Shown: positions 2,402 to 44,196 of the stretch, piece by piece
Numbering within the stretch: position 1 is the stretch's first letter
Layout: every line of letters begins with the position of its first letter
Assembly (NCBI GenBank): GCA_014802325.1
Contig: JAAVCK010000018.1
Span: 1-44,196, forward strand
Direction of reading: 5' to 3'
DNA: 44,196 nt
Source of the DNA: Bacteroides sp.
GTDB lineage: Bacteria > Bacteroidota > Bacteroidia > Bacteroidales > Muribaculaceae
Notes under the pieces: generated by a model
What the model was told of the DNA's origin: nothing
The model's database searches: none
The model's input: the letters and a program-made list of their open reading frames with translations, nothing else
Position numbers and translations under genes: made by a program

Positions 2402-2419
2402 AGTGTATACCGGTATCTG

Positions 2420-3139: not shown

Positions 3140-3145
3140 AAGGAT

Positions 3146-4057: not shown

Positions 4058-4073
4058 CGTGACAGAATTTTTG

Positions 4074-4081
4074 CAAAGGTA
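4074..4081 (-). promoter_or_regulatory. Promoter -7 element of the coiled-coil/mgtC/antiporter operon
   Basis: The minus strand reads TACCTTTG here, matching the Bacteroidota TAnnTTTG -7 element, 16 bases from the ATG at 4057. No clear TTTG is visible 19-21 bases upstream, so the call rests on the -7 box and on its position between two genes. Confidence 0.5.
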
Positions 4082-4121
4082 CGAAAATTTCGGGAATTAT
4101 CGAGCGATGCCGGACTGTAGG

Positions 4122-4871: not shown

Positions 4872-4886
4872 GATTGTAATGTGAGG

Positions 4887-6275
4887 TTAAAGGGTGCGTG
4901 TGACGTAGATCTGGGCGTTTTCGTAGCGCACGATGTTGACTTTCTGTCCGGCGGGGATGAACGACATGGTGGCTACCGCATCGAGCGTCTGCCCGTCGAC
5001 AAGCACTTTGCCCGAGGGGCGGAGGTCAGTGACGGCTACGCCTGTGTGGCCGATGAAGCGCTTGGGCGACATGTCGACTCCGATGTAACCTTCGTCGACC
5101 TGCTGAGTAAGGAGGAGCTCGGTATGGCGGCGTGCCCATCGCGGGCCGTAGGATGATGTGAGATACCATATCAGGGCTATGGCGAGCACCACGCCTGCGC
5201 AGAAGATCACGAGCGACGATATGAGTGAGTCGGAGTCGTAGAATCCGAGCGAGAATGTCATGTGCTCGATGAGTCCGATAATTATGGCGGCGCTCACGCA
5301 GAGTATGCCTGAAATGCCGGTGATGCCGAATCCGGGGACGACGAATATCTCAAGCAATATCAGAATCAGTCCGACGATAAAGAGCACTACTATCCAGCTG
5401 CTGGCTATGCCTACGAGGTAGAGGGGCAGGAAGTAGAGCGCGGCAGCGGTGATGGCCACTACCGAGGGGAAGCCCATGCCGGCTGTCTGCATCTCCATGT
5501 AGATGCCTCCGATTATCAGCATGATGAGTATGGCCTGGACTCCCGGCGAGGTGAAAAATCCGATCAAGCGGTCGACCCACGAGGGGGCGTAGGTGGTAGT
5601 GGTGTAGGAATTGATGCCGAGATTTTGGAGCACTTCCGGTATGGAGGATGCGCGGCCGTCGGCATAGCCCCAGTGCAGGGCTTCGTCGGTGGTGAAGGTG
5701 AGCACCCGGGTGGAGTCGATCAGTCCGGGGACGCTTACGCGCGAGTCGACCATGGCTTCGGCTATGAGGGGGTCGCGCCGCCACTGCATGGTGGAGTCGT
5801 CGGCGAGATATTTGCCGTGGTGTTCGGCGGTAGCTCTCATCATGGCGCGCATGTATGACTGATATTTGTCGGGCATGGCCGAGCCGTCGGTGCCGCTCAC
5901 TACCGTGACGGCTCCCATGGTGGCTCCGGGACGCATGACTACGGTGTCGCACGCCAGAGCTATCAGGGCGCCGGCCGAAGCGGCATTGTTGTCGACGAAT
6001 GCCACTACGGGGCGGGGGTAGTTGAGGAGGGCTGTGCGGATGGAGTCGGCGTGGACCACCGATCCGCCGTAGGTGTTGAGGTGGACGAGTATCATGTCGG
6101 CATCCATGGCGCGGGCGTTGTCGAGCGCATTGCGGGTGTAGAGCCACGTGGTCGATCCGATCTCGTCGTCGAGGTTGAGCACATACACCTTTGCCGGATC
6201 AGCGGCCGGGATGGATGCAGCGGCAGAGCTGATGATGGCCAGAAGGGCGGTGAAGAGGGCGAGGAAGCGTTTCAT
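4887..6275 (-). CDS. NfeD-family membrane serine protease (ClpP-like plus NfeD/OB domain)
   Basis: A 462-residue protein of the NfeD/SppA-related family. A signal-type N-terminus (about 1-22) precedes a ClpP/crotonase-fold protease domain. The predicted oxyanion glycines are G70-G71, the nucleophile Ser100 lies in NNAASAG, and Lys137 in PDKYQSY is a good candidate for the catalytic base. About four to five membrane helices lie at 230-375, followed by the small beta-barrel NfeD domain (about 400-462, with VGVDMSPKRFIGHTGVAVTD). Long NfeD proteins of this type often act with stomatin-like proteins in membrane quality control; no stomatin gene is adjacent. The ATG overlaps the stop of the outer-membrane factor gene by 4 bases, indicating translational coupling. 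Confidence 0.88.
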   Translation of the reverse strand: MKRFLALFTALLAIISSAAASIPAADPAKVYVLNLDDEIGSTTWLYTRNALDNARAMDADMILVHLNTYGGSVVHADSIRTALLNYPRPVVAFVDNNAASAGALIALACDTVVMRPGATMGAVTVVSGTDGSAMPDKYQSYMRAMMRATAEHHGKYLADDSTMQWRRDPLIAEAMVDSRVSVPGLIDSTRVLTFTTDEALHWGYADGRASSIPEVLQNLGINSYTTTTYAPSWVDRLIGFFTSPGVQAILIMLIIGGIYMEMQTAGMGFPSVVAITAAALYFLPLYLVGIASSWIVVLFIVGLILILLEIFVVPGFGITGISGILCVSAAIIIGLIEHMTFSLGFYDSDSLISSLVIFCAGVVLAIALIWYLTSSYGPRWARRHTELLLTQQVDEGYIGVDMSPKRFIGHTGVAVTDLRPSGKVLVDGQTLDAVATMSFIPAGQKVNIVRYENAQIYVTRTL

Positions 6276-7672
6276 TTCGGTAGATTTAATAAGTCGGGCG
6301 AACCACCGCCTACGGCCTTGTAGACTTGCACGAGGGCGAGATACTGGTCGCGGCGGGCGTTGGCAAATCCTATCTGGGCGTCGAAATACTGACGCTGCGC
6401 GTCAAGCACTTCAAGGTAGTGGAGCATACCGCCTCGGTATTGCAGTCGCGACAGTTCGACGTATTTCAGAGCGGCGTCGCGGAGCTCCTCCATCAGGGCG
6501 GTGGTGTGGCGAGCCTTGTGGTAGGCGGTTACGGCATCCTGCACCTCGACAAATGCGGCTATGACACACTGCTCGTAGGCGAGCCGGGTCTGTTCGTAGA
6601 CCTGTATGGCCTGCTGCCATGCGCGCTTCTTTCGTCCGAAGTCAAATACGGGAGCGGTGATGCTTCCGATGAAATCGCCGTAGAGCGAACGGAAAAATCC
6701 GCCGAAAGAGTCGTTTTCCCATCCGCCGGTGAGCGAGACCACTATCGACGGGAAGCGGTCGGCATACGAGATGCCTACGCCGTCCATTGCGGCTTTGAGG
6801 CGAAGCTCGGCGGCCATCACGTCGGGGCGACGGCGCAGTAGGTCGGTAGGGACACCGGTGAGAAGGGTGTCGGGCAGGCCTTCGTTGAGATACAGATGCG
6901 ACATGCCGATCTCGCGTCCGGGAAATTCACCCATGAGCAGGGCGAGGGCGTTGAGGCGACTCTGAAGGTCGTTTTCGAGCGAAGGAATAAGAGCGGCGGC
7001 GGAGTTGTATTCCACTTTGGCCTGCTGATATACGGTCTCAGAGGTGAGTCCGCCTTCGTAGCGCAGCCGGGCCTGTTCGAGACCTTCGCGGCGTGTGACG
7101 AGAGTCTGCTTTACGATGGCTATCTGAGTGTCGAGCGCGAGGAGGTTGAAATATGTGGTGGCCGCTTCGGCTATGAGCGACATCTGAAGGGCGCGGTAGT
7201 CCTCGACCGAGGCGCGGTAAAGATTGGCACTTTTGCGGCGCTGGCGGGCCTGTTTGCCCCAGAGGTTGGCTTCCCAAGCCACGTTGGCTGTCAGGTCGAG
7301 GGTATTGCCTACGGTGTGGGGCGAGCCGGAGTAGTTGATACGCTCCTGCTCGGCTGATATGCCGGCTGAAATTTCGGGTGCGAGATTCAGTCGGTCGGTG
7401 TGGTATTGCAGGCGCAGCTCCTCGATGCGAGAGGCGGCTGCGAGGAAGTCGCGGTTGTGGAGCAGCGTGCGCTCGATTATGAAGCGGAGATTGCGGTCAG
7501 TGTAAATCTCCCACCACTGCATGTCGGCATATGAGAGCGAGTCGGCCACGGTGCCCTCATATCTTTCGGGTATGTCGGTGCCGATGGTGCTTGCGGTGAG
7601 ATCGCGAGTGCCGGAGCATGCCGCAAGCATCAGTGTTAACAGTGTGGCTATCAGTGCAGCTTTGAGATTCAT
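6272..7672 (-). CDS. TolC/NodT-type outer-membrane efflux lipoprotein
   Basis: A 466-residue outer-membrane factor of the NodT branch of the TolC family. The signal peptide ends in a lipobox (LMLAACSGT, Cys19). The rest shows the two tandem TolC repeats with long amphipathic helices; PDTLLTGVPTDLLRRRPDV near residue 270 is the typical link before the second repeat. It would form the trimeric exit duct of an efflux complex. It starts 12 bases after the adaptor gene ends, and the NfeD gene overlaps its stop. The gene for an RND or ABC inner-membrane pump, normally found between adaptor and duct, is absent. Confidence 0.92.
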   Translation of the reverse strand: MNLKAALIATLLTLMLAACSGTRDLTASTIGTDIPERYEGTVADSLSYADMQWWEIYTDRNLRFIIERTLLHNRDFLAAASRIEELRLQYHTDRLNLAPEISAGISAEQERINYSGSPHTVGNTLDLTANVAWEANLWGKQARQRRKSANLYRASVEDYRALQMSLIAEAATTYFNLLALDTQIAIVKQTLVTRREGLEQARLRYEGGLTSETVYQQAKVEYNSAAALIPSLENDLQSRLNALALLMGEFPGREIGMSHLYLNEGLPDTLLTGVPTDLLRRRPDVMAAELRLKAAMDGVGISYADRFPSIVVSLTGGWENDSFGGFFRSLYGDFIGSITAPVFDFGRKKRAWQQAIQVYEQTRLAYEQCVIAAFVEVQDAVTAYHKARHTTALMEELRDAALKYVELSRLQYRGGMLHYLEVLDAQRQYFDAQIGFANARRDQYLALVQVYKAVGGGSPDLLNLPK

Positions 7673-31466: not shown

Positions 31467-31547
31467 GCCCAGGTGGCGGAATGGTAGACGCGCTCGTTTC
31501 AGGTGCGAGTGCTGCGAGGCGTGCAGGTTCGAGTCCTGTTCTGGGCA
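31467..31547 (+). tRNA. tRNA-Leu (anticodon CAG)
   Basis: An 81-base class II tRNA. The acceptor GCCCAGG pairs with TCTGGGC (one G-T) and discriminator A follows. The anticodon stem CTCGT/GCGAG encloses TTCAGGT with anticodon CAG. A long variable arm and T arm GGTTCGAGTCC are present; CCA is not encoded. AT-rich foreign DNA begins shortly after its terminator, so this tRNA is the likely integration target of the island. Confidence 0.95.
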
Positions 31548-31553
31548 CAGATA

Positions 31554-31870: not shown

Positions 31871-34033
31871 TTAAATGAGGTCTTTAAAAAATCCAAATTC
31901 CTCATCAACTAGAATGCGCCGATCAAGGCCTAGATTACGTTGTTCACATGAGGTTTCTGAGACCATGGCACATGAAAAACAAGCTGCATAGTTTAGCGGA
32001 TCGCTATCATTTTCCCAACAGATGGGATCTGATGAACAATCTATTGCTCTATTTAAAGCTGTCATGATTATATTTTCAATGAGTTCTGGTTGTCCTTGCC
32101 ATACTAAACCTCCCATACTTCCTTCAGAGCCATCTGCCGTATATATAAGAACGCCGCACATCCTTTCGGAGAAGTAAAGACGTTCTTTTAGACTTGCAGT
32201 AGGATATCCACAAGAGAATTCGAGTTCTTTCATGATTATATGGGAGAGCGTATGCAAAAGATAAAATTTTTCGACTCCACCTTTTTGCATCATAGCAGCC
32301 ACATTTTCATAAATATTCTCCATATGGCGATTATGCGGATATCGTTTTTGGAATACGGTGGAGTTCCTTTCTACCCATTGAGAAATCAGGTCTTCGTTAA
32401 GACTAAAAAATAACCCCTCTCCGAATGTCTGATTGGCGGGCATAACAAGAACCTCCTCATTAGGTTCTTTGAAGATTTTCATACTACTAGGATATCGCGT
32501 AACTCCATCGACAACTTCCGGTTGGGGGATTTGTACTCTTGAAAAGTTAATTTGAGTAGAACTTACGCCAAGAGTTTCCACTTGCTGAATCTTGGAGAAG
32601 TATGGCTTTAAAGATTCTGGCAAATCAATATCTTTAAACTCCAGTTTATCGGAAGATTCGTTGGATTTGCTGTTGTTTTGAAATACAGAGAATTCCGAAA
32701 AACGATATTCCTCTCTTGAATCTGAAGATGATGGCTCGGCATCAGCATACAAGAAAGCAGCTACGATGCTCATCATATCTTCAGCTGTGACATCATATCC
32801 ACTATCAGATGCTTTATCTAGCAAATCCTCAGTAGTTATTGAGTTTATATAGTCAGCCCGCGATTTATCGGGATTTCGCTGAATGTATCTAGTGTACCAC
32901 CTTGTCGTAAGCAAATTAAGAAGTCTTTGTTCCGAATCACTAAGACTGGCAGCAGAGTCTAAATAGCAACTTGGGAGATAAAGACTACTGAAATTCTCAG
33001 CATAGTAGACACTATTACTGGTTACAAGAGCCCACTTCATATTAACAGACTGACCGCGATGTGTGCACTTCGCATTATCTCTAGCTCCGATTCCTTCCCA
33101 AGGACGATGACCGGGACAGGATGGCTGAAGGTTCATAATACCTTCTAGGCTTATAGACTGTCCACAACAACCACATTTTAGCGTACCAAAACTTTCAGAA
33201 TGAGCTCTATTCTCATGCCATTGTAATTGGTGCTTACCGTTACTTGAACCAGAGCATGGGTACTCATCCGCGTCAAAGCCGAAAAGATCGAAGCCTTCTT
33301 TGTGAACTATGTCTTTGCCCTGCTTCTTCACAGCACAAAAGTATTTATCCCAAGGAATATCTGACATATGTCCGTTCCTACAAATTAGCACCATGGATAC
33401 CTGTTCCAGTAAATTATAGACCTGATTTTTCCCCTCAGGCAATCCGGATTTATGTAATTTGGTGGTAGGAGATTTAGGGTCTCTTGGAGGAGCAAAGTAC
33501 TCAGCTAATCCGTTATTGCATCCTCGTTCCTTCCACATTTTGAACCAATCTTCAACAGTCATTAAGTCATGACTTGGTCGCATTGAAAAGAACCAACGAG
33601 GGAATGTAATAGCAGGCACAGTAAACATTTCTTCCTTAAGCCCTGTTCCTTGTTGATTTCTTTCAAGATAGCGCAGATTTAAAGGATGGTCCGTTACATT
33701 ACATCTATTCCAGCCAGTAAGCTCTATATGTGGTATGCTAACTAAACATCTTAGTTTAGTCAATGATTCAGAATTTCGCAGAAAACTAATAAACCTTGGA
33801 TCATCGACAAATTCCACTCCAAGATTATCAGCAAGCGTTTGGTCTATCGTCGTCTCCGGATTATTCTTTAATTTGTTTGATACGACTCTAATAAACTCCC
33901 AGTATGAAGATGACATCGGCATTACAAATCCACCTGACTTGGTGGGTAAAATAGCGCCAACACCAGCATTCGAGGAAAGTAATTTATACTTCCCGATCCC
34001 TTGATTGTATTGTTTTAATGTTCGTATTTCCAT
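31871..34033 (-). CDS. drmB: DrmB-like DUF1998 protein (DISARM core)
   Basis: A 720-residue protein of the DUF1998/DrmB type, which in DISARM forms a complex with the DrmA helicase that engages DNA. The family block CRNGHMSDIPWDKY lies near residue 216. A zinc-binding cluster CGCCGQ near 284 with CPGH near 308 follows. The DUF1998 C-terminus shows HTLSHIIMKELEFSCGYP near 591, SEGSMGGLV, and the Cys set CFSC/SCEQRNLGLDRRIL (about 681-705). The drmA stop lies 3 bases before its ATG, and its Shine-Dalgarno AAGGAG (34042-34047) is inside the last codons of drmA, so translation is coupled. It is the last gene of the operon. No drmC or methyltransferase follows. Confidence 0.85.
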   Translation of the reverse strand: MEIRTLKQYNQGIGKYKLLSSNAGVGAILPTKSGGFVMPMSSSYWEFIRVVSNKLKNNPETTIDQTLADNLGVEFVDDPRFISFLRNSESLTKLRCLVSIPHIELTGWNRCNVTDHPLNLRYLERNQQGTGLKEEMFTVPAITFPRWFFSMRPSHDLMTVEDWFKMWKERGCNNGLAEYFAPPRDPKSPTTKLHKSGLPEGKNQVYNLLEQVSMVLICRNGHMSDIPWDKYFCAVKKQGKDIVHKEGFDLFGFDADEYPCSGSSNGKHQLQWHENRAHSESFGTLKCGCCGQSISLEGIMNLQPSCPGHRPWEGIGARDNAKCTHRGQSVNMKWALVTSNSVYYAENFSSLYLPSCYLDSAASLSDSEQRLLNLLTTRWYTRYIQRNPDKSRADYINSITTEDLLDKASDSGYDVTAEDMMSIVAAFLYADAEPSSSDSREEYRFSEFSVFQNNSKSNESSDKLEFKDIDLPESLKPYFSKIQQVETLGVSSTQINFSRVQIPQPEVVDGVTRYPSSMKIFKEPNEEVLVMPANQTFGEGLFFSLNEDLISQWVERNSTVFQKRYPHNRHMENIYENVAAMMQKGGVEKFYLLHTLSHIIMKELEFSCGYPTASLKERLYFSERMCGVLIYTADGSEGSMGGLVWQGQPELIENIIMTALNRAIDCSSDPICWENDSDPLNYAACFSCAMVSETSCEQRNLGLDRRILVDEEFGFFKDLI

Positions 34034-34036
34034 AAT

Positions 34037-37000
34037 TTAATCTCCTTGGTATATAACACGTACATTGAGAACCGCTTCAGGTTCAATCATTCTTAAGGAC
34101 GATGAAACGGTCCAATTACTTGCATTTTTAGTTTCTTCATAATCAATGGGAGAAGTGAACAATGGGGTCTTGTCATTCCGTCTAACTCCTTTGTTTTCAT
34201 ATACAAGGTTTGAGGGAAGCTCGGTTGCCATATTGCACCATTGATCTAGTGCAGAAGATATAAGTTGTTGAATATCTTTCAACTGAACCGTAGTAAGCAA
34301 TTGTTTTTCAAGCTTATTTGGAAGGAGTTGGCTTCTCTTATGCCGTTCTATAAAATATCTTGACACGATTTCCATTGCCTTCTCTTTAAGCTTGTCCTTA
34401 TTAATCTGAGCAGCAGCATTATTATTAGCTAATTCAGGCATCAAATGTCGGATAATTGAAGCCATATACAAAGGAAGATATTTCTGCACAGATTTTTTCG
34501 AGAACGGAGTAATCGAAATTGGCTCGACATAATAGTATAGCTTCTCATGGAATTCCCTGAAACGTTCAAAATGGGAAACATCTCTTGATCGGAAAGGATT
34601 ATGCAGGGTCAAAACTAATCCCTTGACGCTTCGGGCAACACGTGAACTTGCTTGGATATATTCTGCAATGTTACGCGGCATCGAATTCATGATTATTGTG
34701 TTGAACCTACTAACATCAAGTCCAACTGAAATCATGTTTGTTGCCAAAATATAATCTGGAGGAACAACAGCTTTATTCCAATTGCTATCCTCATCCTTAA
34801 ATGGGAGACGATGTGCCATTTCCCATCGCTGTTCTACCTCAGCAAATTTTCCGTTTATTTCTTCACCCGAGAGTCGACTAGTAAGCTCTGCTTTACCTAG
34901 ATTATCTCCCGAATAGAAACAATCCATAAGATTACCATATCGAAGGACTCGCTTAAACAGACGTTTTGTATATTTTGCGTATTCGGTATAGAATAAAGCA
35001 TCAGTTTTACCTACTTCACGAAGACTATTGAAGTAGGATAACACTGAAAAATAATTGTCTGCGGCTCTCTCAAAGTCCACTTCATTCCCATATTCTAATT
35101 CAAATATTGCCCTGTGAACGAAAATAATGGCTGCCAAACGCATCTGTGTTGTCATCTGCGTTCTCCCTGTAGGCATAATGCCCATATACTTTCTCTTTGA
35201 ACAATATTGCTCTTTATTATCAACTTTCTGTCTTTTATAAAAAGAGAAGAACGAATCATCGTGTGTTAATCCATTTTTGGGGAAGATATTAACACTACGA
35301 TCGTAGAGAGCACGAATCTGTAATTCCGTGTTTCTTGTGGTAGCGGTAGAGGATATTATTTTAGGACGTAAGGTTATTTTATTCCCACTTTTGAGAGTTT
35401 CTTTTCTGCTACATAGTTGGTCTATTGCACCCTCGAAGAAACCAACAGCACTTCCAAGGGGCCCCAATAGCAAATGCAGTTCATCTTGAATAATCAAATC
35501 GGGAGTTAGAAAACCTGCCGCGGTTCCAAAAATTCTACGGGAATCCTTTGTCTTTTCTCTATTCGAAGTGGAGACCTTGTGTGCAATAGCAGCAAATTTA
35601 TCAACGGTACCAAATAATAGTGACGGAGGATTTTCATATATTGATTCATCACAAAGTTCTACTGGCACCGCTTTTCTACCGAATGTACAATTCCTATTCT
35701 CGCAAAAGAATTGCTGTACGCCGGAGTCATATGTTAACCGCTTTCCACACCAAGGACATAAATCCAGTGGAATTTTGGTATTGTTTGTGGTTCCCCTTCC
35801 GGACCATTTTATTGCTTCTTCATTTAGACCCTTCTTTGTATTTGGAAGGGAAGCTTCACCCACATAAAGGCCTATTGAGATAACATCTTTCCCATAATCA
35901 TTGGGATCCCAACGTCGAATTTGCTCTAAGGCCATGATAAGCCTTAGGGCACGTTGGAATTGTTGTGTGGTAAGGAGTCGAAGTGTGTAACGCATTATCG
36001 CAGATACTCCTCCACCTTTAGCTCCATAAGAGATCCTTCTGTTTAATATGCACAAGGCAATCAGTCCAAGATATGCTTCCGTTTTACCGCCTCCAGTTGG
36101 AAACCAGACTAAATCTACTAATTCATTCCTTTTATTCCACTGAGAATCTTTCGGATTATTGAAAATGCCATCTAGATTCAGCAAAATGAAAGCCAACTGA
36201 AAAGGTCGCCAAGCAGCATGTTCGCCATCTTTAAATATTTCATCACTTGATGATTTATAGAAATCAGCATTAAGTTTTCGGCGCCCGAGCGCTTGTATTA
36301 TTTCTTGATTTTCAGCCTTATTATGCCATAATTGCATATACATGGCTGAATTCATTACTCTAAAAGCTTTAAGCGCGATTGGATTCAATGACAGAATGTC
36401 ATCAATATTGGAGAGCATTCGTAAATAATCCGATTCACACTCATCCAAGTTGGCATTACCGAATTCTAGATCTCTAGCCTCCAATCGCGTTCTCATTTCT
36501 TGAATCCACAAACCATAAGCGTTGACGAATTTTTTCAATTCGTTTATGACTTCATTGTCTGAAACTTCCGAAAACAATGATAATCGTTTAAACTGAAGTA
36601 CATTGGTGTCTTCTAAGAATGGGGCAGGAACCATTACACCGTCAGTAGCAACATACGCAGAAAACTTCTTTCTAGGAACCGGCTCAACATCAGGTGTTTC
36701 AAAAGACGGTATAAATTCAATGAAAACTTCATTTACTTTGCCCTTTGAATCTTTATTCCAATCAACTGAGCACATGTGGCCTACACCATAGTCCTCAATT
36801 TCTCTATATAGGTAGTTGAGTTTATCTTCTGCTTTTAAGACGTCTTCATAATTATCATTCTTTCGATATGGCAAAAGATACTCGCTGATAACAGAACCTT
36901 TTATGCCAAAGAAACAGAAAAGGTTAACCTGCTCATTTACTATCGAGAAATAATTATGTTTGTCTTCTTGGAAGGGCGTTGAATCATTCTGAATCAGTAG

Positions 37001-38146
37001 TTTCAAATAAACATTATCGTCTTTATCTCTTCGGCTATCTTTAGTTATTTGTAACCAAGCGGATAATGATATATGCCTATCAGATGAATTGGCACCCACT
37101 CCATTGCGATTTGGGACAGTATCTAAAATGATATTTTTTAGTACCGCATAATCTTCCGGTTTAAAGATAGTCTTATGACCTTGCAGCTTGTCTAAAGGGA
37201 TACTCGATAAATCTATCTCCTTTGTAAATGATATAGATCTCCAGAATCCAAAGCTCTTTTTGTCATACATGGAGAGAAAGTCATCAAAATATGAGATGAT
37301 TGTCTCGTAATTCTCAATTTCAAGTATGCCTTCTCGGAATTTATTAATATCTTCGTCAGAAAGGTACAGCCCGTCTTTTACTTGACGTAATTGGTTGAAT
37401 AGATATTCGCGATACGAAAGCAAAAATCTATATGGAGCTTTAACTTTCTCTGCAATGTTAAGTCTATTAGCAATTCGCAATGCTAACTCTTGATTTAAAT
37501 CTCGTAGAAGCTGTTTGATAATAGATACATTCTTAGTATTAATATCTTTGATCGAGATGGATTTGCCATCAAATGAAAAGTATTGATGAAGGGTCTGAGT
37601 CGAATCCCAGAAATCATTAAAGAGCTTGTCATTGTCTGTAAGATTGACCCTTATATTACGGCGGTCTGTCCCAATAATTTTTTTATAATATCTACCCGAG
37701 ATAGAAATCCGAAGGTTCCCATTTATCAAAGCTTCTTTGGCCAAGCAACAGGACATACCAATAGCATGAGGGAATCTTCTGCTTAAAGAATAAATATCTT
37801 CATCGTCAATTTCTTCTTGTCTGTAGAGTTCGAAGTTCGTTTCTTGTTGAGGCGCCTCTGCTGGAGCCATCTCGCTTGTTGCTATCTCATCTGCGTCAAA
37901 TGATTCATCATACGTGTCTCTATTCTCGCCTGGATCTTGGCAATCTTTTACAGGCATTTGTTTAGGGAAAAGAATAGCAGTGCTATAGATTGAACCAGGA
38001 GTGGTATTTACCACTTCCTCTTGACATACAGCATCTTCAGCGTCCGTATGATACGAAAACTTCCCTCGGCATCCATTGGGGCCAATCATTTGCTCCCTAA
38101 TAAAAGCCTCTAACGAGTCTCTTTTGATATCTATAATGTTTGACAT
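34037..38146 (-). CDS. drmA: DrmA-like SF2 helicase (DISARM core)
   Basis: A 1369-residue superfamily 2 helicase of the DrmA type. Walker A WFPTGGGKTEAYLGL lies near 680, the DExH motif QDELHLLLGPLGSAVG near 885, motif III SSTAT near 932 and motif VI QASSRVARS near 1164. A zinc ribbon CPWCGKRL...CENRNC lies near 798, inserted between motifs I and II. About 650 residues precede the helicase core and have no motif I recognise. I start at 38146 (MSNIIDIKRD): it has a good Shine-Dalgarno (38154-38159), while the ATG at 38212 lies within the -33 box of the promoter at 38182-38212. In DISARM, DrmA with DrmB senses or unwinds phage DNA; this role is inferred from the family. Confidence 0.87.
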   Translation of the reverse strand: MSNIIDIKRDSLEAFIREQMIGPNGCRGKFSYHTDAEDAVCQEEVVNTTPGSIYSTAILFPKQMPVKDCQDPGENRDTYDESFDADEIATSEMAPAEAPQQETNFELYRQEEIDDEDIYSLSRRFPHAIGMSCCLAKEALINGNLRISISGRYYKKIIGTDRRNIRVNLTDNDKLFNDFWDSTQTLHQYFSFDGKSISIKDINTKNVSIIKQLLRDLNQELALRIANRLNIAEKVKAPYRFLLSYREYLFNQLRQVKDGLYLSDEDINKFREGILEIENYETIISYFDDFLSMYDKKSFGFWRSISFTKEIDLSSIPLDKLQGHKTIFKPEDYAVLKNIILDTVPNRNGVGANSSDRHISLSAWLQITKDSRRDKDDNVYLKLLIQNDSTPFQEDKHNYFSIVNEQVNLFCFFGIKGSVISEYLLPYRKNDNYEDVLKAEDKLNYLYREIEDYGVGHMCSVDWNKDSKGKVNEVFIEFIPSFETPDVEPVPRKKFSAYVATDGVMVPAPFLEDTNVLQFKRLSLFSEVSDNEVINELKKFVNAYGLWIQEMRTRLEARDLEFGNANLDECESDYLRMLSNIDDILSLNPIALKAFRVMNSAMYMQLWHNKAENQEIIQALGRRKLNADFYKSSSDEIFKDGEHAAWRPFQLAFILLNLDGIFNNPKDSQWNKRNELVDLVWFPTGGGKTEAYLGLIALCILNRRISYGAKGGGVSAIMRYTLRLLTTQQFQRALRLIMALEQIRRWDPNDYGKDVISIGLYVGEASLPNTKKGLNEEAIKWSGRGTTNNTKIPLDLCPWCGKRLTYDSGVQQFFCENRNCTFGRKAVPVELCDESIYENPPSLLFGTVDKFAAIAHKVSTSNREKTKDSRRIFGTAAGFLTPDLIIQDELHLLLGPLGSAVGFFEGAIDQLCSRKETLKSGNKITLRPKIISSTATTRNTELQIRALYDRSVNIFPKNGLTHDDSFFSFYKRQKVDNKEQYCSKRKYMGIMPTGRTQMTTQMRLAAIIFVHRAIFELEYGNEVDFERAADNYFSVLSYFNSLREVGKTDALFYTEYAKYTKRLFKRVLRYGNLMDCFYSGDNLGKAELTSRLSGEEINGKFAEVEQRWEMAHRLPFKDEDSNWNKAVVPPDYILATNMISVGLDVSRFNTIIMNSMPRNIAEYIQASSRVARSVKGLVLTLHNPFRSRDVSHFERFREFHEKLYYYVEPISITPFSKKSVQKYLPLYMASIIRHLMPELANNNAAAQINKDKLKEKAMEIVSRYFIERHKRSQLLPNKLEKQLLTTVQLKDIQQLISSALDQWCNMATELPSNLVYENKGVRRNDKTPLFTSPIDYEETKNASNWTVSSSLRMIEPEAVLNVRVIYQGD

Positions 38147-38153
38147 TCTTAAT

Positions 38154-38159
38154 CTCCTT
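38154..38159 (-). promoter_or_regulatory. Shine-Dalgarno site that fixes the drmA start
   Basis: The minus strand reads AAGGAG, 7 bases before the ATG at 38146. Core genes of this window largely lack such sites. A near-identical site (34042-34047) precedes drmB, suggesting this gene pair came from a donor, or a lifestyle, that favours Shine-Dalgarno initiation. Confidence 0.8.
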
Positions 38160-38181
38160 ATATTGCTTGGTTTATTATTTA

Positions 38182-38212
38182 CAAATTTACTATATCTTGT
38201 GTAATTCTGCAA
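38182..38212 (-). promoter_or_regulatory. Internal promoter for drmA-drmB
   Basis: On the minus strand TTG (38212-38210), 20 bases, then TAAATTTG (38189-38182), matching the Bacteroidota consensus. It lies in the 101-base gap between the 770-residue gene and drmA, the only long gap in the operon, so drmAB may be expressed separately from the upstream genes. Confidence 0.55.
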
Positions 38213-38224
38213 TTATGTGGCGCC

Positions 38225-38251
38225 TTAAAGACATTCCGAATGTTACTTTAA
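38225..38251. promoter_or_regulatory. Dyad-symmetric site upstream of the drmA promoter
   Basis: TTAAAG-ACATTC (38225-38236) is complementary to GAATGT-TA-CTTTAA (38238-38251), with a two-base bulge. It overlaps the stop codon of the 770-residue gene and sits 13 bases above the -33 box. It could be an operator or an mRNA hairpin; nothing proves which. Confidence 0.4.
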
Positions 38252-40560
38252 TTACACGTCGCGATTGTTTTGAGGTCGATCTTTTCTTCAACTAATTCGA
38301 CTAGTGTAACCAAATCCTTGATATTGTGAATTTGTAGAGCCTCATTGATTGGGCTTTCTTTAAATTCCTCAAACATTTCATCTGTAATTTCACTAAAAAG
38401 ATAATCCATCATGAAATGGTCTATCATCTGATTATTTGCTCTCGAGTTTGCCTTAGTAGCACGCTTCACAGCTCTCATTGCGTCTAGATACTTCAAAGAA
38501 AGGCCTAGGTATTCAATTAAACGTTTCTGTGTCTTTCGCGCTAACGGTAGAAGCATTTTACTTTCAGGTGAATACCAAGCGCGGAAAGCGTACAAACTTA
38601 TTCTCTCCCGGTCATTTAAAGGTTCCATAAGTTCATCGTAAACTTCTTGTTCTCCCATTGCCTCAACCTTTTTTCTTAAAAGAATGTTCCAAATTGTATT
38701 ATCAGATTGTTCCTCATCTTTTGTTAAACGTCCAATCCTCAAGTAGTAGTCACGCAACACCTGAACTTTCCTGTTTGCTTTTTGACTTTCCTTTTCCATG
38801 AATTCTTCAATTAATCCATCTAAAGCAGAAAGTTTCTGTAGGTTAACTCCTTTAAGAGTCTCTACATGCTCTTTTAACTCTGAGAACTTTTCAATCGCAA
38901 TAACAGAGTCTTTCTCATATATTATGAGCTCTGTATCAAGAACTGATATTTTTTCTCCATCAGAAAAAGTGATAGGATTTGTTTGTGTACTATTGCTCCT
39001 AGTCTGCGTTTCATCTGGTTCCACATCATAATTTTCCTTAGCACTTACAGGATGAATCGGCTTGGGAAGGGTAAAGTCATAGTGCTTTCTAAACAGACTG
39101 TTGGTATATTGACACAGCAATTTATTGTATTCATAAAGATCCCACTCATGGATGCTGTTAAAAGAGAATCCATGAGCAATATCTAGTATTCTTTGTTCTT
39201 CATTCAATATATATGGATCAAAGGAATTAGGATACTTGTGATAGCTGTTATTTGCAAAGTGTCCTCTATATGTGAGATTTACAATACACTTTTCTTTTAT
39301 AGCGGCTTTCCCATCCTTTGGCTTTAACTCGGATACGCAATAAAATTTTAATTTTCTACCAATGCCAAAAACAACTTTCAGTCCCTCTTTTTCTTGCATG
39401 GTAGCATCATGAGGTAATATAAAAGCAACCCTTGTATCATCTCCGATGAATTTCAAAATTTCAGGAATTATCCTATTGTCGGCTATTTCTTGCTGGTATT
39501 CTAGTGAGAAAGCTAACTCAACATCCATTCCAACAATAGCCGACTGAGCCTTTCGTAGATAATTATTGCACAATGTCTTATTAAGACACAACGACAGATG
39601 ATTTCTTTCAAGAATAGGATAATCACAGGTTCCAACAAATTCGCCAATCATACCATTATAGTAAAATTGGTCATCCTCAATGAATACATGCTGGTTAACA
39701 AACGGCTTCCCAAACAAATACAATGATTCTTCCTCTGTAAATGTTATGAAGTCTTCATTATGCAAGGATTCTTTTTCAGAAGCAAGACATTCGAATTTTG
39801 AGTGTCCTAATCTAATCATTCGCGCCCTAGTTTTATAAAGACGTTGTGGCTTTTGCGAAAACTCGAACACAAAGCAGTTCTTGACATTATCCAAACCAGC
39901 TCGTTCAATTCCACTTTTTGTTAATGAATTACACTGGTCACTATTACGATATATTACAAATAGATTGGAGATGGATTCACCCAGAGGTTCGTTATCGTAA
40001 GTAATGTCGTCAATCTCTTTTTGTCCGATTTCGGTGCATATTGTCAAATTTGAATCATTATCAAGATTGTTATATCCACCTGATAGATCACTTAGATATT
40101 CATTTTTATTGCCACGCGATGCATTGAGCACTTGGATTGGTGTGAACAGTAGATTTTTCCCGGTGTAGGAATACAACGGCATCCCTGTCCTACATATTTG
40201 GGAAACATATCGACGATATTTTATTAGTCTATTATTGAAACGATTATCATTGGTTGCGAGCATAATTGGCGTTTTCTTCAATGCTCTTAGCTTATTTATA
40301 TTCTTATCATTATACGAAAGTACCAATTTCAAAACGAGGTACTCCACAAAGACGTCTTCCGCCCAATCCGGACAATTGGGGATTCGTACAATTGGGAAAT
40401 GAATATCTTCATCTTCCTTAGATAAATAAAAATCAATAATCTCATTCAAAAGCAAAAGCAGCCGTCTTGCGTTGGACTTCTGACTATGAACCATAAGGCT
40501 GATGATGGCATCAACAAGCTCTGAGTCTTTATTAACTATGTTTTTGAAATTATCGTTCAT
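38248..40560 (-). CDS. Unrecognised 770-residue protein, DrmE candidate by position
   Basis: A 770-residue soluble protein in which I see no catalytic motif, signal peptide or membrane helix. The N-terminal third is mixed alpha/beta, including RALKKTPIMLATNDNRF and VEYLVLKLVLSYN. A middle segment reads VAFILPHDATMQEKEGLKVVFG. Residues from about 560 are strongly helical and acidic (SELKEHVETLKGVNLQKLSA and on). It occupies the place held by drmE in class 2 DISARM (just before drmA), and its size is compatible, so DrmE homology is a reasonable hypothesis but is not shown by any motif I know. Its ATG overlaps the NERD-helicase stop as ATGA, so the two are translationally coupled and probably work together. 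Confidence 0.6.
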   Translation of the reverse strand: MNDNFKNIVNKDSELVDAIISLMVHSQKSNARRLLLLLNEIIDFYLSKEDEDIHFPIVRIPNCPDWAEDVFVEYLVLKLVLSYNDKNINKLRALKKTPIMLATNDNRFNNRLIKYRRYVSQICRTGMPLYSYTGKNLLFTPIQVLNASRGNKNEYLSDLSGGYNNLDNDSNLTICTEIGQKEIDDITYDNEPLGESISNLFVIYRNSDQCNSLTKSGIERAGLDNVKNCFVFEFSQKPQRLYKTRARMIRLGHSKFECLASEKESLHNEDFITFTEEESLYLFGKPFVNQHVFIEDDQFYYNGMIGEFVGTCDYPILERNHLSLCLNKTLCNNYLRKAQSAIVGMDVELAFSLEYQQEIADNRIIPEILKFIGDDTRVAFILPHDATMQEKEGLKVVFGIGRKLKFYCVSELKPKDGKAAIKEKCIVNLTYRGHFANNSYHKYPNSFDPYILNEEQRILDIAHGFSFNSIHEWDLYEYNKLLCQYTNSLFRKHYDFTLPKPIHPVSAKENYDVEPDETQTRSNSTQTNPITFSDGEKISVLDTELIIYEKDSVIAIEKFSELKEHVETLKGVNLQKLSALDGLIEEFMEKESQKANRKVQVLRDYYLRIGRLTKDEEQSDNTIWNILLRKKVEAMGEQEVYDELMEPLNDRERISLYAFRAWYSPESKMLLPLARKTQKRLIEYLGLSLKYLDAMRAVKRATKANSRANNQMIDHFMMDYLFSEITDEMFEEFKESPINEALQIHNIKDLVTLVELVEEKIDLKTIATCN

Positions 40561-42287
40561 TTCTTTAAATAGATGATCTCAACATCAAGAATGGCTCTTG
40601 ACATTCCAATATAAAGTTCGTATTTATCGCTCACTTTATCAGCGTCTATGAGAAGAATAATATGCTTATTTTCAAGACCTTTATAGGACAATATAGTCGT
40701 TAATGATAAAGTCTCGCTTTGTAGTGATAAGTTTTTATGCGTCAGTTCTTTTATCCACTCGATATCAGCTAATCTATCATAGAATGAAGCAATACCGCAT
40801 CGTAAAGTTGACGAAGAGAGCAACACATAATCACTAATGGATTTATTAGATTTGGCTCTTAAATAAATATCTTTAAGAAGACCAATTCCCTCACGGTAGG
40901 TAGCACATTTATTAACCTTAATACATGAAGGATTTGATAACGAGAAATCGTCAATGATGTTGCAAACCTCGTGTAATTCGGCATGGAGGATTTTATTAGC
41001 ACAATGAACCAGACATTTATTGGACGGGACTCTTTTGTTTTCGTTCAATATGTAATGAGCTCCAAAATCAGAGATTTCATTTGCAAATACTCTCAATTGA
41101 CGATCATCATTTCTATAACCTTGCTCGGTGTCATAAAAGATTAGATACCGACCATTGGATAATCCTCTTGAATCAACTGATGTGAGAGTATTGATTACAT
41201 CCTTGATTCCCTTATCAAATATATCTTGTGCCTCATCTACGACAATAAAATCAAATGGATAGAAACCTTCTCGTTTTCGATAGGCTCTTACAACATCATT
41301 AACTTTAGTACGGATACAATTGGGCGTGCCTTGAAAATCTTCAAAACTTATGGTATCTTTCCCTGTAGACAGTCTCGAGATAAAGGAAATGTATTGTTCA
41401 ACTTGGCAGTTCTTTATGTTTGCGATTTCCAAGTCGTGTTTAATTTTAGATGCAAGTAGGTTGTTCCAACAGAGATAGACGCCTCTTAGTTTTTTATATT
41501 TTCGAATAAACGCTTTTGCAATCGTAGTTTTACCAGTTCCCGGGCCTCCCTCTATAATAATTCTTTTGTTTTGTTGAATGGCACGGAAAACTTCAAGGTT
41601 TTGAACTTCAAGCCAATTGACTATAGTAGCATAGTTCTCTTCAGAATAATTCCAGAATGTTGGCCTGTTTTGAGAAAAGGGACTTATTGAAATAGCTAAT
41701 TCTTTGTCAGACATAATAACCTCTCCCCAGTTCTTCATTTGTCGTTCCTTGCATATAACATCTAATGCAAATTTTGCGAAAGAACAATTTGAGGATATTT
41801 GTTCTGCCTCAGTCCAAAGTTTATATTTTAAATCAAGAATGGAAGTACTATTTGTTGATGACATCATAGTATGCGGGAATGCACATGCTGTGGCCACGAA
41901 GACTCCATTGGGAAGGATATTATTGTTTATAATAGCAAATTTGTAGTCATCCGCTTGAGCAAATGGAGACCTGTCCATATAGTTAATTCCATTACTGCTA
42001 AAGAAAAATTTGCCATCATCTATACCGACCTTACCGCCTTTGACTTCTACTATTAATATCCCATATGCAGAAGCCAACAAAAAATCTATCTGGATTTCTG
42101 ATTGGGAGTTAATGGATATAGGCAATCTCAAATCGTGCCAAAAGTGCCATAACAAATCACTCTTTTGGCAATCATTGTATATTCTCCGATACATATCAAT
42201 TTCTCCATGCAGAGGTGTCCCATCATTTTTTACCATGATAGTCTCTAACATATCTAGATCCTTATAATCGTGAGATATAATAGCCAT
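40557..42287 (-). CDS. NERD nuclease domain-UvrD-like helicase fusion
   Basis: A 576-residue protein joining two activities. Residues about 25-150 are a NERD domain, a PD-(D/E)XK-type nuclease fold: Glu64 and Asp68 in SEIQIDFLL, and Glu81-x-Lys83 in LIVEVKGG, fit the active site. Residues 225-576 are a compact superfamily 1 helicase of the UvrD/Rep type. It has Walker A GGPGTGKT (247-254), Walker B VVDEAQD (349-355), motif III IFYDTEQ (383-389), and a C-terminal SYKGLENKHIILL plus YIGMSRA block (motifs V and VI of the UvrD_C_2 type). It is shorter than UvrD and lacks the 1B/2B insertions. NERD helicases recur in defence loci. It overlaps the next gene by 4 bases and follows the radical SAM gene by 14. 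Confidence 0.85.
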   Translation of the reverse strand: MAIISHDYKDLDMLETIMVKNDGTPLHGEIDMYRRIYNDCQKSDLLWHFWHDLRLPISINSQSEIQIDFLLASAYGILIVEVKGGKVGIDDGKFFFSSNGINYMDRSPFAQADDYKFAIINNNILPNGVFVATACAFPHTMMSSTNSTSILDLKYKLWTEAEQISSNCSFAKFALDVICKERQMKNWGEVIMSDKELAISISPFSQNRPTFWNYSEENYATIVNWLEVQNLEVFRAIQQNKRIIIEGGPGTGKTTIAKAFIRKYKKLRGVYLCWNNLLASKIKHDLEIANIKNCQVEQYISFISRLSTGKDTISFEDFQGTPNCIRTKVNDVVRAYRKREGFYPFDFIVVDEAQDIFDKGIKDVINTLTSVDSRGLSNGRYLIFYDTEQGYRNDDRQLRVFANEISDFGAHYILNENKRVPSNKCLVHCANKILHAELHEVCNIIDDFSLSNPSCIKVNKCATYREGIGLLKDIYLRAKSNKSISDYVLLSSSTLRCGIASFYDRLADIEWIKELTHKNLSLQSETLSLTTILSYKGLENKHIILLIDADKVSDKYELYIGMSRAILDVEIIYLKK

Positions 42288-42301
42288 AGTCCAACTTATT
42301 A

Positions 42302-43690
42302 TTAGTTTGATTTTTTTAGTATTTCAAATTTAAGGGAGAACAAATCAAGTAGCTCATCAACATGTTCTGGAAACATATCAAATAACTCAACAATGGTCCT
42401 TAAGGGAAGACACATTCTGACGTTATCATAATATCCGGCCTTTACATCTTTAATGAACTCATCATAGCTCTTTTGTTTCGGCCGTCCAACAATTTTTTTA
42501 GTTGTCTCTTCCCAGAAAGATTGATTACGATATACAAATTCCCAAAACGACATTTTTTTATAAAATGCTTGCTGATTACACCATCTTGCAATTTGTACAT
42601 ACAAGTTAGGAAGGGGAGAATTATGGTAATCCTCATGCCTCATGACATATCCTACACAACCGAATTTCATGAGAATCTCGATACGCTTGAAAATTAAGCA
42701 AATATCTTCATAGAAACGCTCAATATTGTCTGGTGTCATGCGGTACCCACAGAACAAATAGAATTTAGTTCCTTTATTGGGATTATATTTCCTCCATATT
42801 TTTAACGCTTTTATTATTTTCTCTCTGTCCTGCCAGTTGTCAAAGGCAAATATAAAATCTCCATGATATTTACACTGAGAAAGCATTTTGGCGATTTCCT
42901 CTCCATCAGGGCTCTCTGCAATAATCCTTTCATCTAATCCTTGTCTAAATTGAAAAGGACGTCCAAGTTTCATCAATGCTTCTAACTGAGGCTTCCATAT
43001 TTCCTTGGGGGCTGCAAGAAAATTGTCATCCCATAAATAGATATACGGTCTAATCAATCTACCACGATCGTCTCTTTCGTTACTGACAAACCATTCAAGT
43101 TTAGAGTATGCAGAAACCTTATTCTCCAGTTTATTTACGCAAAATGGGCAATGACGGATACAGCCCCTGGTGAGAAAGCCAATAGAGTAACGTTTATAGT
43201 CACTATAATAATTCGGATTTCGCCCCTCCTTAACCTTCTGCTCAATATAATCATCATATAGCTTATAATCCGGCATTTGACGACTTAAGTCTATACCAAA
43301 TGGTCTTTCTTCTATGCAATATTTATTGGGTAGTGTCCTTAAAAATGGATCGTTTTCTATTTGATGCATGTCCTGTTCGCGAAATTGTTTGAACTCGGAC
43401 ACTTTTGTTTTAGTGGCATACATACCTGTGCCACCAATCCTAAACTTTCTTTTCTGGTATTTGGTGGCAGTAGTATAAAATTGAGGGTCTGGAGAGAAAG
43501 AGAAAACCTTTGAGATATAGATTAATTTATATTTTGAAATATTTATAGTATTCGTAGTAATCAACTCAACAACAAAATTATTGTCTTTGAGGAAGCCGGA
43601 TAGTTTCATTAACAATAAATTCGGATGTCGGGTACCTCCGTTTAATAAATCTGCGTCAACCAATCCAATTTTGGGTTTCTTTTTAGCCAC
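42302..43690 (-). CDS. Radical SAM protein with B12-binding-like N-terminus (phage-type)
   Basis: A 462-residue radical SAM enzyme. Cys177, Cys181 and Cys184 in GCIRHCPFC form the CxxxCxxC site for the [4Fe-4S] cluster that cleaves S-adenosylmethionine. Residues 1 to about 110 (KIGLVDADLLNGG...HPNLLLMKLSG, then IYISKVFSFSPDP, then IGGTGMY) resemble the Rossmann-like N-terminal domain of a radical SAM group common in phages and mobile elements, whose substrate is unknown. It starts with GTG at 43690, 8 bases after the XRE regulator stop. It is not a viperin: the order and spacing of motifs differ. Its place in a defence operon suggests modification of a nucleic acid, nucleotide or protein, which is inference. 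Confidence 0.8.
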   Translation of the reverse strand: MAKKKPKIGLVDADLLNGGTRHPNLLLMKLSGFLKDNNFVVELITTNTINISKYKLIYISKVFSFSPDPQFYTTATKYQKRKFRIGGTGMYATKTKVSEFKQFREQDMHQIENDPFLRTLPNKYCIEERPFGIDLSRQMPDYKLYDDYIEQKVKEGRNPNYYSDYKRYSIGFLTRGCIRHCPFCVNKLENKVSAYSKLEWFVSNERDDRGRLIRPYIYLWDDNFLAAPKEIWKPQLEALMKLGRPFQFRQGLDERIIAESPDGEEIAKMLSQCKYHGDFIFAFDNWQDREKIIKALKIWRKYNPNKGTKFYLFCGYRMTPDNIERFYEDICLIFKRIEILMKFGCVGYVMRHEDYHNSPLPNLYVQIARWCNQQAFYKKMSFWEFVYRNQSFWEETTKKIVGRPKQKSYDEFIKDVKAGYYDNVRMCLPLRTIVELFDMFPEHVDELLDLFSLKFEILKKSN

Positions 43691-43698
43691 GGTAATCG

Positions 43699-43914
43699 TT
43701 ATTTATCCATTAGAAGTTCAGACATTTTTGTGTTAATCAGCTCGGAAATATTTTTTAATGTATATAAATCCGGTTGGGAAGTGTTGGTGCACCATTTGGA
43801 GACAGTGACGGGGTCTTTGCCTAATTGCTCGGCAAGCCATTTACCAGTGTGTCCTGTTTCCGCTAATACCGCTTTTATCCTATTTAGTTTTTGACGTTCT
43901 ATTTTTGTCTCCAT
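43699..43914 (-). CDS. XRE-family (Cro/C1-type) transcriptional regulator
   Basis: A 71-residue single-domain helix-turn-helix protein. I start at the ATG at 43914 (METKIERQKLNRIKAVLAE), matching common Bacteroidales homologues that begin METKIE; the frame is open nine residues further up. The HTH core reads GKWLAEQLGKDPVTVSKWCTN. Such small regulators head restriction-modification and other defence loci and usually autoregulate. It is the first gene of the operon, and two CTGTATA direct repeats sit at its promoter. Confidence 0.88.
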   Translation of the reverse strand: METKIERQKLNRIKAVLAETGHTGKWLAEQLGKDPVTVSKWCTNTSQPDLYTLKNISELINTKMSELLMDK

Positions 43915-43938: not shown

Positions 43939-43984
43939 CAAAGTTACTAAATATAATTGAGACTGTATACTATTATGCTGTATA
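43939..43984 (-). promoter_or_regulatory. Promoter and candidate operators of the defence operon
   Basis: The minus strand reads TAACTTTG at 43946-43939 as the -7 box, about 25 bases above the regulator ATG. The -33 position holds no TTTG; instead CTGTATA occurs twice in the same direction (43963-43969 and 43978-43984 on the plus strand, period 15). The first copy covers the -33 site. This fits autorepression by the XRE protein. Confidence 0.45.
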
Positions 43985-44025: not shown

Positions 44026-44196
44026 TTATGTCCGTGAGTCTATACGATGCTTGTGGAGGAAATTGTCAATATCGGCTTGGTTGACGTAGATTTTGCGGCC
44101 AATCTGGGAGAAGGGGATGAGGCGTTGGTCGCGGTAGTTCTGCCATGTTTTTGGTGAAATGCCGAGGAGTTTTCGCGCTTCTTCGGATTCGAGCCA
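44026..44196 (-). CDS. Excisionase-like HTH (HTH_17) DNA-binding protein, partial
   Basis: Only the last 56 codons and the stop are inside the window; the gene runs off the right edge. The reading WLESEEARKLLGISPKTW, then RLIPFSQIGRKIYV, then DIDNFLHKHR is the MerR-like winged HTH_17 domain found in excisionases and in small regulators of Bacteroidales integrative elements. It ends 112 bases above the XRE start, in the same direction. It supports a mobile-element origin of the island. Its local base composition is closer to that of the core genes than the defence operon is. Confidence 0.8.
   Translation of the reverse strand, partial: WLESEEARKLLGISPKTWQNYRDQRLIPFSQIGRKIYVNQADIDNFLHKHRIDSRT

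Follow-up and report, generated by a model that had tools for sequence, protein, structure and literature searches.

A probable DISARM-related operon of Muribaculaceae with a radical-SAM gene in the slot of a C5-cytosine methyltransferase

Introduction

How do DISARM systems spare the DNA of their own host, and is methylation needed for it? This question is raised by a six-gene operon in a 44,196-nucleotide stretch of a Muribaculaceae genome (Bacteroides sp., assembly GCA_014802325.1, contig JAAVCK010000018.1; the whole stretch is called the window hereafter). Class 1 DISARM comprises DrmA, DrmB, DrmC, DrmD, and DrmMI, and class 2 comprises DrmA, DrmB, DrmC, DrmE, and DrmMII (see PMC9252829). 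An initial annotation of the window, made from its letters alone, described the operon as a DISARM relative with DrmA and DrmB, lacking a methyltransferase and DrmC, in which a NERD nuclease takes the place of DrmC and self DNA is recognized through another modification or through DNA ends. Two points escaped it: a radical S-adenosylmethionine (radical-SAM) gene sits where a related locus carries a C5-cytosine methyltransferase, and the 770-amino-acid protein U770 probably represents a highly divergent DrmE-position protein. The operon very probably serves a DISARM-related defence, and the odds appear about even that it is a DISARM-type anti-phage operon in which the radical-SAM enzyme (rSAM) displaced the methyltransferase.

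Results and discussion

A radical-SAM gene in the methyltransferase slot

The operon (31871..43914, all minus strand) consists of the following genes, given in operon order:

43699..43914, minus strand: XRE/Cro-type regulator, 71 amino acids (HTH_3, 4.4e-7)
42302..43690, minus strand: radical-SAM enzyme (rSAM), 462 amino acids, GTG start (CX3CX2C motif; phrog_9298, 2.3e-37; AlphaFold model)
40557..42287, minus strand: NERD nuclease fused to a UvrD-like helicase, 576 amino acids (PF08378, 1e-9; PADLOC NERD and UvrD models)
38248..40560, minus strand: U770, 770 amino acids, DrmE position (hhalign likeness to the DrmE/DrmE-like family)
34037..38146, minus strand: DrmA-like SF2 helicase, 1369 amino acids from the ATG at 38146 (PADLOC DrmA, 7s9v_A, and motifs)
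31871..34033, minus strand: DrmB-like protein (DUF1998/MZB), 720 amino acids (NCBIfam NF038324, 1.1e-86; PDB 7s9v_B, 1.6e-40)

Open reading frames and start choice bear out the originally described intergenic gaps of 8, 14, -4, 101, and 3 bases, taking the ATG starts of XRE (43914) and DrmA (38146). The DrmA frame is open up to a TTG at 38212, upstream of its ATG, and AGGAG-type sequences precede both the ATG at 38146 and DrmB.

In genome G459, a locus (L041) encodes a C5-cytosine methyltransferase (PF00145), NERD, U770, DrmA, and DrmB in that order. Its last four genes, 35%, 22%, 40%, and 38% identical to those of the window, are arranged as in the window, which has rSAM where G459 has the C5 methyltransferase. 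In PADLOC, this methyltransferase scored best with general type II models and lower with DrmMII; the contig starts 447 bases before it, and no XRE gene was seen there. In a tree of 11 NERD proteins, those of five rSAM operons form one clade (99.8/100) and G459 branches next, while beyond it four other DISARM NERDs, all from C5 methyltransferase loci, stand with a non-DISARM NERD of G456. Given this topology, a single replacement of a C5 methyltransferase by rSAM is the simplest history, one that hinges on a small number of loci and on the tree being rooted outside the rSAM clade.

The absence of a linked methyltransferase and of DrmC was correctly noted in the initial annotation. None of the six proteins matched a DNA methyltransferase (DrmMI/DrmMII) in PADLOC, Pfam, or NCBIfam, and none matched DrmC. 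Nothing to the right of the unit is readable in the source genome because the contig ends at 44196, but on a 3.6-Mb contig of genome G007 no methyltransferase was found directly on either side. Within the 5.4 kb before XRE in G007, the open reading frames of at least 200 amino acids are only a tyrosine integrase, a YhcG nuclease, and a MobC-like protein. After DrmB, the first methyltransferase found is an Eco57I-type gene 9.7 kb off on the opposite strand, adjoining OLD/UvrD genes, and one 482-amino-acid protein without a Pfam match is encoded in between. Beside DrmB, neither G007 nor G014 gave a blastp match to Nostoc DrmC.

As a mark of a distinct variant, this double absence does not hold, since it recurs in other Bacteroidales DrmAB loci. 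We compared 22 DrmA loci (L041-L057, L074, and those of the window, G007, G014, and G1147). A linked C5 methyltransferase is present in five loci, rSAM in three (window, G007, and G1147), and NERD-UvrD in nine, the 5' side being out of view in L042, L043, and L054 and before NERD in G014. DrmC was found in none of the 22 (blastp to Nostoc DrmC and phospholipase D motif), with little or nothing visible behind DrmB in L041 (664 bases), L049 (73 bases), and G1147 (none). In seven loci (L044, L046, L047, L048, L050, L051, and L052), where 1.5 kb or more can be read to either side, DrmE-like, DrmA, and DrmB proteins are encoded with no directly adjoining methyltransferase; in L050-L052 the DrmE-like protein is shorter and preceded by a second gene, and type I HsdS and HsdM genes lie 3.6 kb upstream in L047. 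Similar to these, but cut by contig ends, are L045, L049, and L053. The flanks of these loci were checked by blastp to reference methyltransferases and by reading, with Pfam for part of them; N6 methyltransferases may be overlooked in this way, because the same blastp missed the Eco57I-type gene of the G007 locus (L009). The rare feature among the DrmAB loci examined is thus not the missing methyltransferase but rSAM in its slot.

Four further Bacteroidales loci (L055, L056, L057, and L074) combine a C5 methyltransferase, a DrmE-position protein, NERD-UvrD, DrmA, and DrmB. The DrmE-position protein exceeds the NCBIfam DrmE cut-off of 80 bits in L055 (603 bits) and L074 (389 bits) and had no match in L057, nor in L056, where PADLOC alone was used. 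The two DrmE-positive loci, L055 and L074, carry NERD-UvrD and a C5 methyltransferase as well, and no DrmC was found in them. The window operon shares DrmA, DrmB, and a DrmE-position protein with class 2 and differs in lacking a methyltransferase and DrmC, in carrying rSAM in the methyltransferase slot, in a U770 that falls short of the DrmE model, and in the added NERD-UvrD. With class 1 it shares DrmA and DrmB only; DrmD, DrmMI, and DrmC are absent from its six genes, none of which matched the SNF2-like helicase models for DrmD in PADLOC and NCBIfam.

The survey also brought up some loci of separate interest. In genome G825, a C5 methyltransferase, AIPR, DrmE, NERD-UvrD, DrmA, DrmB, a Vsr-like protein, and an SLFN-g3 helicase are encoded in a row (L074, 129-15655), forming an extended DISARM-like locus, and in G767 a PRTase-CE (phosphoribosyltransferase) gene lies directly upstream of the DrmE-like gene (L048, 12165-13442). 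A plasmid (L079) encodes DrmE-like, DrmA, and DrmB proteins, with neither a methyltransferase nor DrmC directly adjoining, and a similar locus (L083) adjoins type I restriction genes. The DrmE-like proteins scanned from L044, L047, L050, and L079 had no PADLOC match.

Conservation and distribution of the unit

The six genes, treated as one unit from the start, also occur as one elsewhere: the window and G007 have it in full, and the visible genes agree in G014, whose contig starts within NERD (so that its rSAM is out of view), and in G1147, whose contig stops within DrmA. Gene order and reading frames are kept in these four genomes as far as the contigs extend, and dN/dS values of 0.02-0.27 across all six genes indicate purifying selection. 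The operon is more than a chance assembly. The possibility raised with the initial annotation, that homologues occur independently, applies to rSAM in phages and to NERD-UvrD in G456, which lacks DISARM, yet the six-gene unit is also kept together.

Its distribution is patchy. DrmA of the window type was found in 4 of 397 family genomes, the source genome among them, while a fifth genome (G825) has another type. U770 occurs in 3 of 61 relatives, again counting the source genome, and additionally in RIBL01000036 (a Muribaculaceae isolate) and CAMWQF010000110, whose gene positions match those of the G1147 contig; in plasmids, phage contigs (two scans), and a phylum sample of 395 genomes, it was found nowhere beyond its own genome (1/395). 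At 1e-10, rSAM matched 4 of 384 genomes in a sample of the order, namely its own, G684, and two weak relatives.

The 5' half of the operon (rSAM, NERD-UvrD, and U770) recurs in two distant lineages. Up to its end, the 7-kb human-faecal scaffold MT837356 encodes rSAM (60.5% identity), NERD (39%), and U770 (26%), arranged as in the operon. Genome G684, from another family, has XRE (56% identical), a RecG-C-like regulator, rSAM (58%), NERD (38%), and a 207-amino-acid remnant of U770; DrmA was not found in the 13 kb beyond this locus, and no match was listed for the genome. Searches with NERD among relatives of G684 and G780 gave no additional DISARM unit. Across these lineages rSAM (58-61% identity) is better conserved than NERD (38-39%) and U770 (26%). 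The record MT837356.1 (L062, genes at 1485-7027) was deposited as 'Bacteriophage sp.', and its content of rSAM, NERD, and U770 from a bacterial operon makes a bacterial or mobile-element origin of this scaffold probable.

DrmAB, the nuclease, and U770

The description of the operon as a DISARM-related DrmA/DrmB unit is upheld by matches in PADLOC, NCBIfam (NF038324), and to the structure 7s9v. DrmB passes its NCBIfam model (292 bits, cut-off 240), and DrmA matches PADLOC DrmA (6.2e-182) and Serratia DrmA (7s9v_A, 3.5e-104). As these matches are unmistakable and the NCBIfam DrmA equivalog cut-off is nevertheless not reached (718.9 vs. 950 bits), DrmA is a divergent member of the family. Judged by sequence, both proteins are genuine DISARM relatives. 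Walker A (FPTGGGKTEA) and IIQDELHLL motifs are intact in DrmA; its match to DpdJ is weak (34.7 of 800 bits). DrmB was absent from the phage contigs and DrmA from the phage records searched.

According to PMC9142583, Serratia DrmAB is autoinhibited, prefers single-stranded DNA or 5' overhangs, and has a lower ATPase activity in the presence of 5-methylcytosine. The base-contacting valine of Serratia DrmA is an isoleucine in the window. As a marker of methylation dependence this residue is uninformative, since every one of the 26 DrmAs compared has Ile or Val there (with a Hymenobacter locus classed as 'none' although type I genes adjoin it), and base sensing by DrmA may accordingly persist.

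TALON, ARMADA, and BRIGADE, as defined in a preprint (Bell 2025, PMC12458937), likewise contain a YprA-family helicase, and TALON also has a NERD nuclease. In the window, however, DrmA and DrmB are separate genes, and BrxHII, PglX, TPR-CSD, TBP, and 7-deazaguanine genes are absent among the six. We rejected ARMADA, TALON, BRIGADE, and Dpd as identities of the operon on the basis of their missing defining genes (PADLOC, Pfam, and NCBIfam): for TALON, NERD is present and TPR-CSD and TBP are not among the six, and for Dpd and BRIGADE, 7-deazaguanine synthesis genes had no Pfam or NCBIfam match there.

The NERD domain is over the PF08378 cut-off (1e-9), and the motifs IDF...EVKGG, GGPGTGKT (Walker A), and DEAQD are intact in the alignment. 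A replacement of DrmC by NERD, as first proposed, was rejected as unsupported, as there is no specific association between the presence of NERD and the absence of DrmC: NERD-UvrD also occurs in C5 methyltransferase loci, two of them with a recognized DrmE, and DrmC was found neither in the NERD-bearing nor in the NERD-less loci. NERD was not found in phage contigs. In the NERD-UvrD locus of G456 (L169, 8773-11569), the gene is divergent from an N6/N4-type methyltransferase gene (PF01555).

U770 matched no PADLOC, Pfam, or NCBIfam family at E < 0.1, no PHROGs family at 0.001, and not the NCBIfam DrmE model NF038316; a PDB sequence search returned nothing meaningful, and a structure model (pLDDT 30) was not used. 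A profile of the U770 family (7 proteins) aligned colinearly in the C-terminal part with one of DrmE and DrmE-like proteins (14) in hhalign (Prob 70.5, E 3.9e-5; E 0.063 with reversed columns as a control), a merged comparison made after weak ones with three smaller DrmE-type groups (E 0.16, 0.0027, and 0.072). This C-terminal likeness, together with gene position, makes U770 probably a very divergent DrmE-like protein.

The radical-SAM enzyme

The assignment of rSAM to the radical-SAM enzymes is based on the CX3CX2C motif at residues 177-184, which does not vary in alignments of 9 and of 32 relatives, on membership in phrog_9298, and on an AlphaFold (AF2) model (pLDDT 82.7, pTM 0.79) with an N-terminal Rossmann-like domain of strands and helices followed by a radical-SAM domain; the Pfam Radical_SAM match is under the cut-off. 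The top PDB matches of the model in Foldseek are MiaB (7mjz, 7.2e-7) and the cobalamin-dependent radical-SAM methylase TokK (7kdx, 4.8e-6), both globally weak (TM ~0.4, root-mean-square deviation 12-14 Å), and a sequence search against PDB returned nothing meaningful. The second cluster of MiaB-like enzymes uses three extra cysteines, which rSAM lacks because only Cys 125 precedes its motif. Cobalamin binding is possible.

A profile scan of IMG/VR yielded 137 rSAM relatives, of which 80 were kept and 74 analysed; the closest phage proteins (phrog_9298) are ~40% identical at best. These belong to the same enzyme family, but in the rSAM tree five operon proteins from three lineages are split from 25 phage and plasmid relatives at 100/100, and a 31-33-amino-acid insertion and a C-terminal extension are found in 5/5 operon proteins and 0/25 phage or plasmid members. 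The sequences thus support a subfamily of operon rSAMs within the phage enzyme family. A relative on a Selenomonas plasmid has an HNH gene nearby and no methyltransferase annotated within 6 kb. Apart from this, L066 (2650-10871) has a 632-amino-acid rSAM-containing open reading frame flanked by genes for an AAA ATPase and a ResIII helicase, with another AAA ATPase gene after the helicase, possibly another defence cluster.

A possible self-marking enzyme and its alternatives

From what is directly observed (gene content, intact motifs, conservation, selection, monophyly, and the slot exchange with one relative), we infer a defence function, a reaction for rSAM, and each step of the following scheme. 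XRE would control a single transcript. DrmA-DrmB, by analogy to Serratia DrmAB, would load onto single-stranded or 5'-overhang DNA and translocate, and NERD-UvrD, as suggested by its intact motifs, would be the nuclease arm that cuts or resects the loaded DNA, with U770 as a tentative DrmE-like partner. Using SAM, rSAM would modify a nucleic acid, with host DNA as the likeliest target, and thereby keep self DNA from triggering DrmAB; it would supply a different modification, sensed by the same DrmAB sensor. That rSAM acts on nucleic acid at all is a balanced call, and that it marks self DNA is a tentative proposal falling clearly short of that. Somewhat more doubtful still is the full version, in which rSAM, possibly cobalamin-dependent, modifies host DNA in place of the methyltransferase as a DISARM-type self-mark, and related phages may mark their own DNA likewise and escape. 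Of the two modes of discrimination initially considered, another modification is now the most specific possible reading; sensing of DNA ends, a published property of Serratia DrmAB (PMC9142583), is possible too.

Self-marking by rSAM is proposed because of the operon slot, the exchange as a single event, and the methyltransferases found near many phage relatives; the methylase TokK among the fold neighbours also speaks for the displacement reading. A DNA methyltransferase (ParB_N-N6/N4 or C5) adjoins rSAM in 39 of 74 phage loci (7.2 expected from the other genes of the same loci) and in 20 of 49 after de-duplication at 85% (4.5 expected), counts that are favoured, to the detriment of this proposal, by the two methyltransferase models having been built from families at most five genes away from rSAM. 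Pfam served to check representative neighbours. In NatCom_21982, placed with the large phage lineage by the rSAM tree, the methyltransferase overlaps the rSAM gene, and LoVEphage, a distant relative (28% identity), has a Dam-type gene two genes from rSAM. Compiled across L093, L096, L121, L132, and relatives, the genes that recur around rSAM in phages give the series terminase small subunit, AdoMet-synthetase-like protein, ParB_N-methyltransferase, rSAM, and C5 methyltransferase.

Several observations weigh against self-marking by rSAM. At 70% de-duplication of rSAM the signal almost disappears, with a methyltransferase within two genes in 5 of 24 clusters (2.4 expected); the association therefore rests mainly on related phages, and what is strong in one large phage lineage is only modest when lineages are compared. 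For the slot exchange, G459 is the one C5 relative with the same gene order. The model's fold matches are globally weak, and it would fit a MiaB-like RNA target equally well. A modification gene may not be needed, as DrmAB loci without an adjacent one exist. C5 methyltransferases encoded elsewhere could act in trans, with one match in G000, six in G007, three in two genes in G014, and three in G1147, compared to none in G684. Finally, the G684 rSAM without DrmAB is compatible with an independent role of the enzyme.

The alternative that survives best, though rather unlikely, is that rSAM is an effector or accessory enzyme producing a viperin-like antiviral nucleotide or modifying tRNA or protein, and that DrmAB discriminates by DNA ends alone. 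The substrate preference of Serratia DrmAB (PMC9142583), the recurrence of DrmE-like/DrmA/DrmB loci without an adjacent methyltransferase, and the tRNA enzyme MiaB as top fold match agree with such a role, which leaves the C5 methyltransferase slot and the apparent one-event exchange unexplained. A known prokaryotic viperin (pVip) is unlikely, because rSAM had no match at E up to 1 in PADLOC, a library which we take to contain a viperin model. It is less probable again that rSAM is a phage-derived passenger, with any self-marking done in trans by the chromosomal C5 methyltransferases of G000, G007, G014, and G1147: the 137 relatives on phage contigs fit this origin, but rSAM is better conserved than NERD and U770, kept in operon order, and under purifying selection, and G684 has rSAM but no C5 methyltransferase match, though DrmAB is absent there. 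Very unlikely is a DNA repair or maintenance operon of a mobile island, as could be suggested by the repair-related YprA-family helicases outside the defence branch (PMC12458937) and by the integrases and the MobC-like gene flanking the unit in G007, given that helicase and DUF1998 as two genes are the DISARM arrangement (same source), that DrmB passes the DrmB model, that only 4/397 family genomes have the operon's DrmA, and that OLD/UvrD, YhcG, and RhuM genes lie near the unit in G007.

Surroundings of the operon

Three further features flank the six genes:

43939..43946, minus strand: putative -7 promoter element TAACTTTG before XRE (TAnnTTTG motif)
31467..31548, plus strand: tRNA-Leu (CAG) at the DrmB end of the operon (ARAGORN)
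44050-44196: excisionase-like HTH_17 open reading frame adjoining XRE, cut by the contig end

TAnnTTTG before XRE is what we take to be the -7 promoter motif of Bacteroidota. TAACTTTG is unchanged in L007 and L008, and L073 has TATATTTG, which also fits TAnnTTTG. A sequence near-identical to the HTH_17 open reading frame lies upstream of XRE in L007. Local G+C drops from ~0.53-0.60 in the window's first 23 kb to 0.35-0.40 within the operon genes. The tRNA-Leu (CAG) is possibly an integration site: the G014 operon also adjoins tRNA-Leu (CAG), while the gene that comes before the window's tRNA sits on another G014 contig. In G007 the tRNA is ~87 kb away from the operon, and a search for a second attachment (att) site copy found none. 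Between DrmB and the tRNA-Leu, G014 has a gene with a weak SMC_N match, RhuM, and Fic/Bro-N (L010, 10454-14693), absent from the window. In G007 (L009, 14174-19816), a Gabija-like pair of OLD-type AAA/TOPRIM and UvrD genes by the Eco57I-type methyltransferase starts ~5.7 kb past the operon on the opposite strand.

Implications

Among the open-access matches listed, including PMC9716671, PMC10250203, PMC13118837, PMC12926258, PMC10853773, PMC12715929, PMC4158269, and PMC5379612, the available text did not report a radical-SAM gene in a DISARM or DrmAB operon. The natural exchange of a methyltransferase for rSAM, with the other machinery kept, makes the question of self-discrimination in DISARM testable. 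If rSAM does modify DNA, this would represent a new self-marking chemistry in immunity, and it would point to a role for a large phage family of radical-SAM proteins to which PHROGs assigns none.

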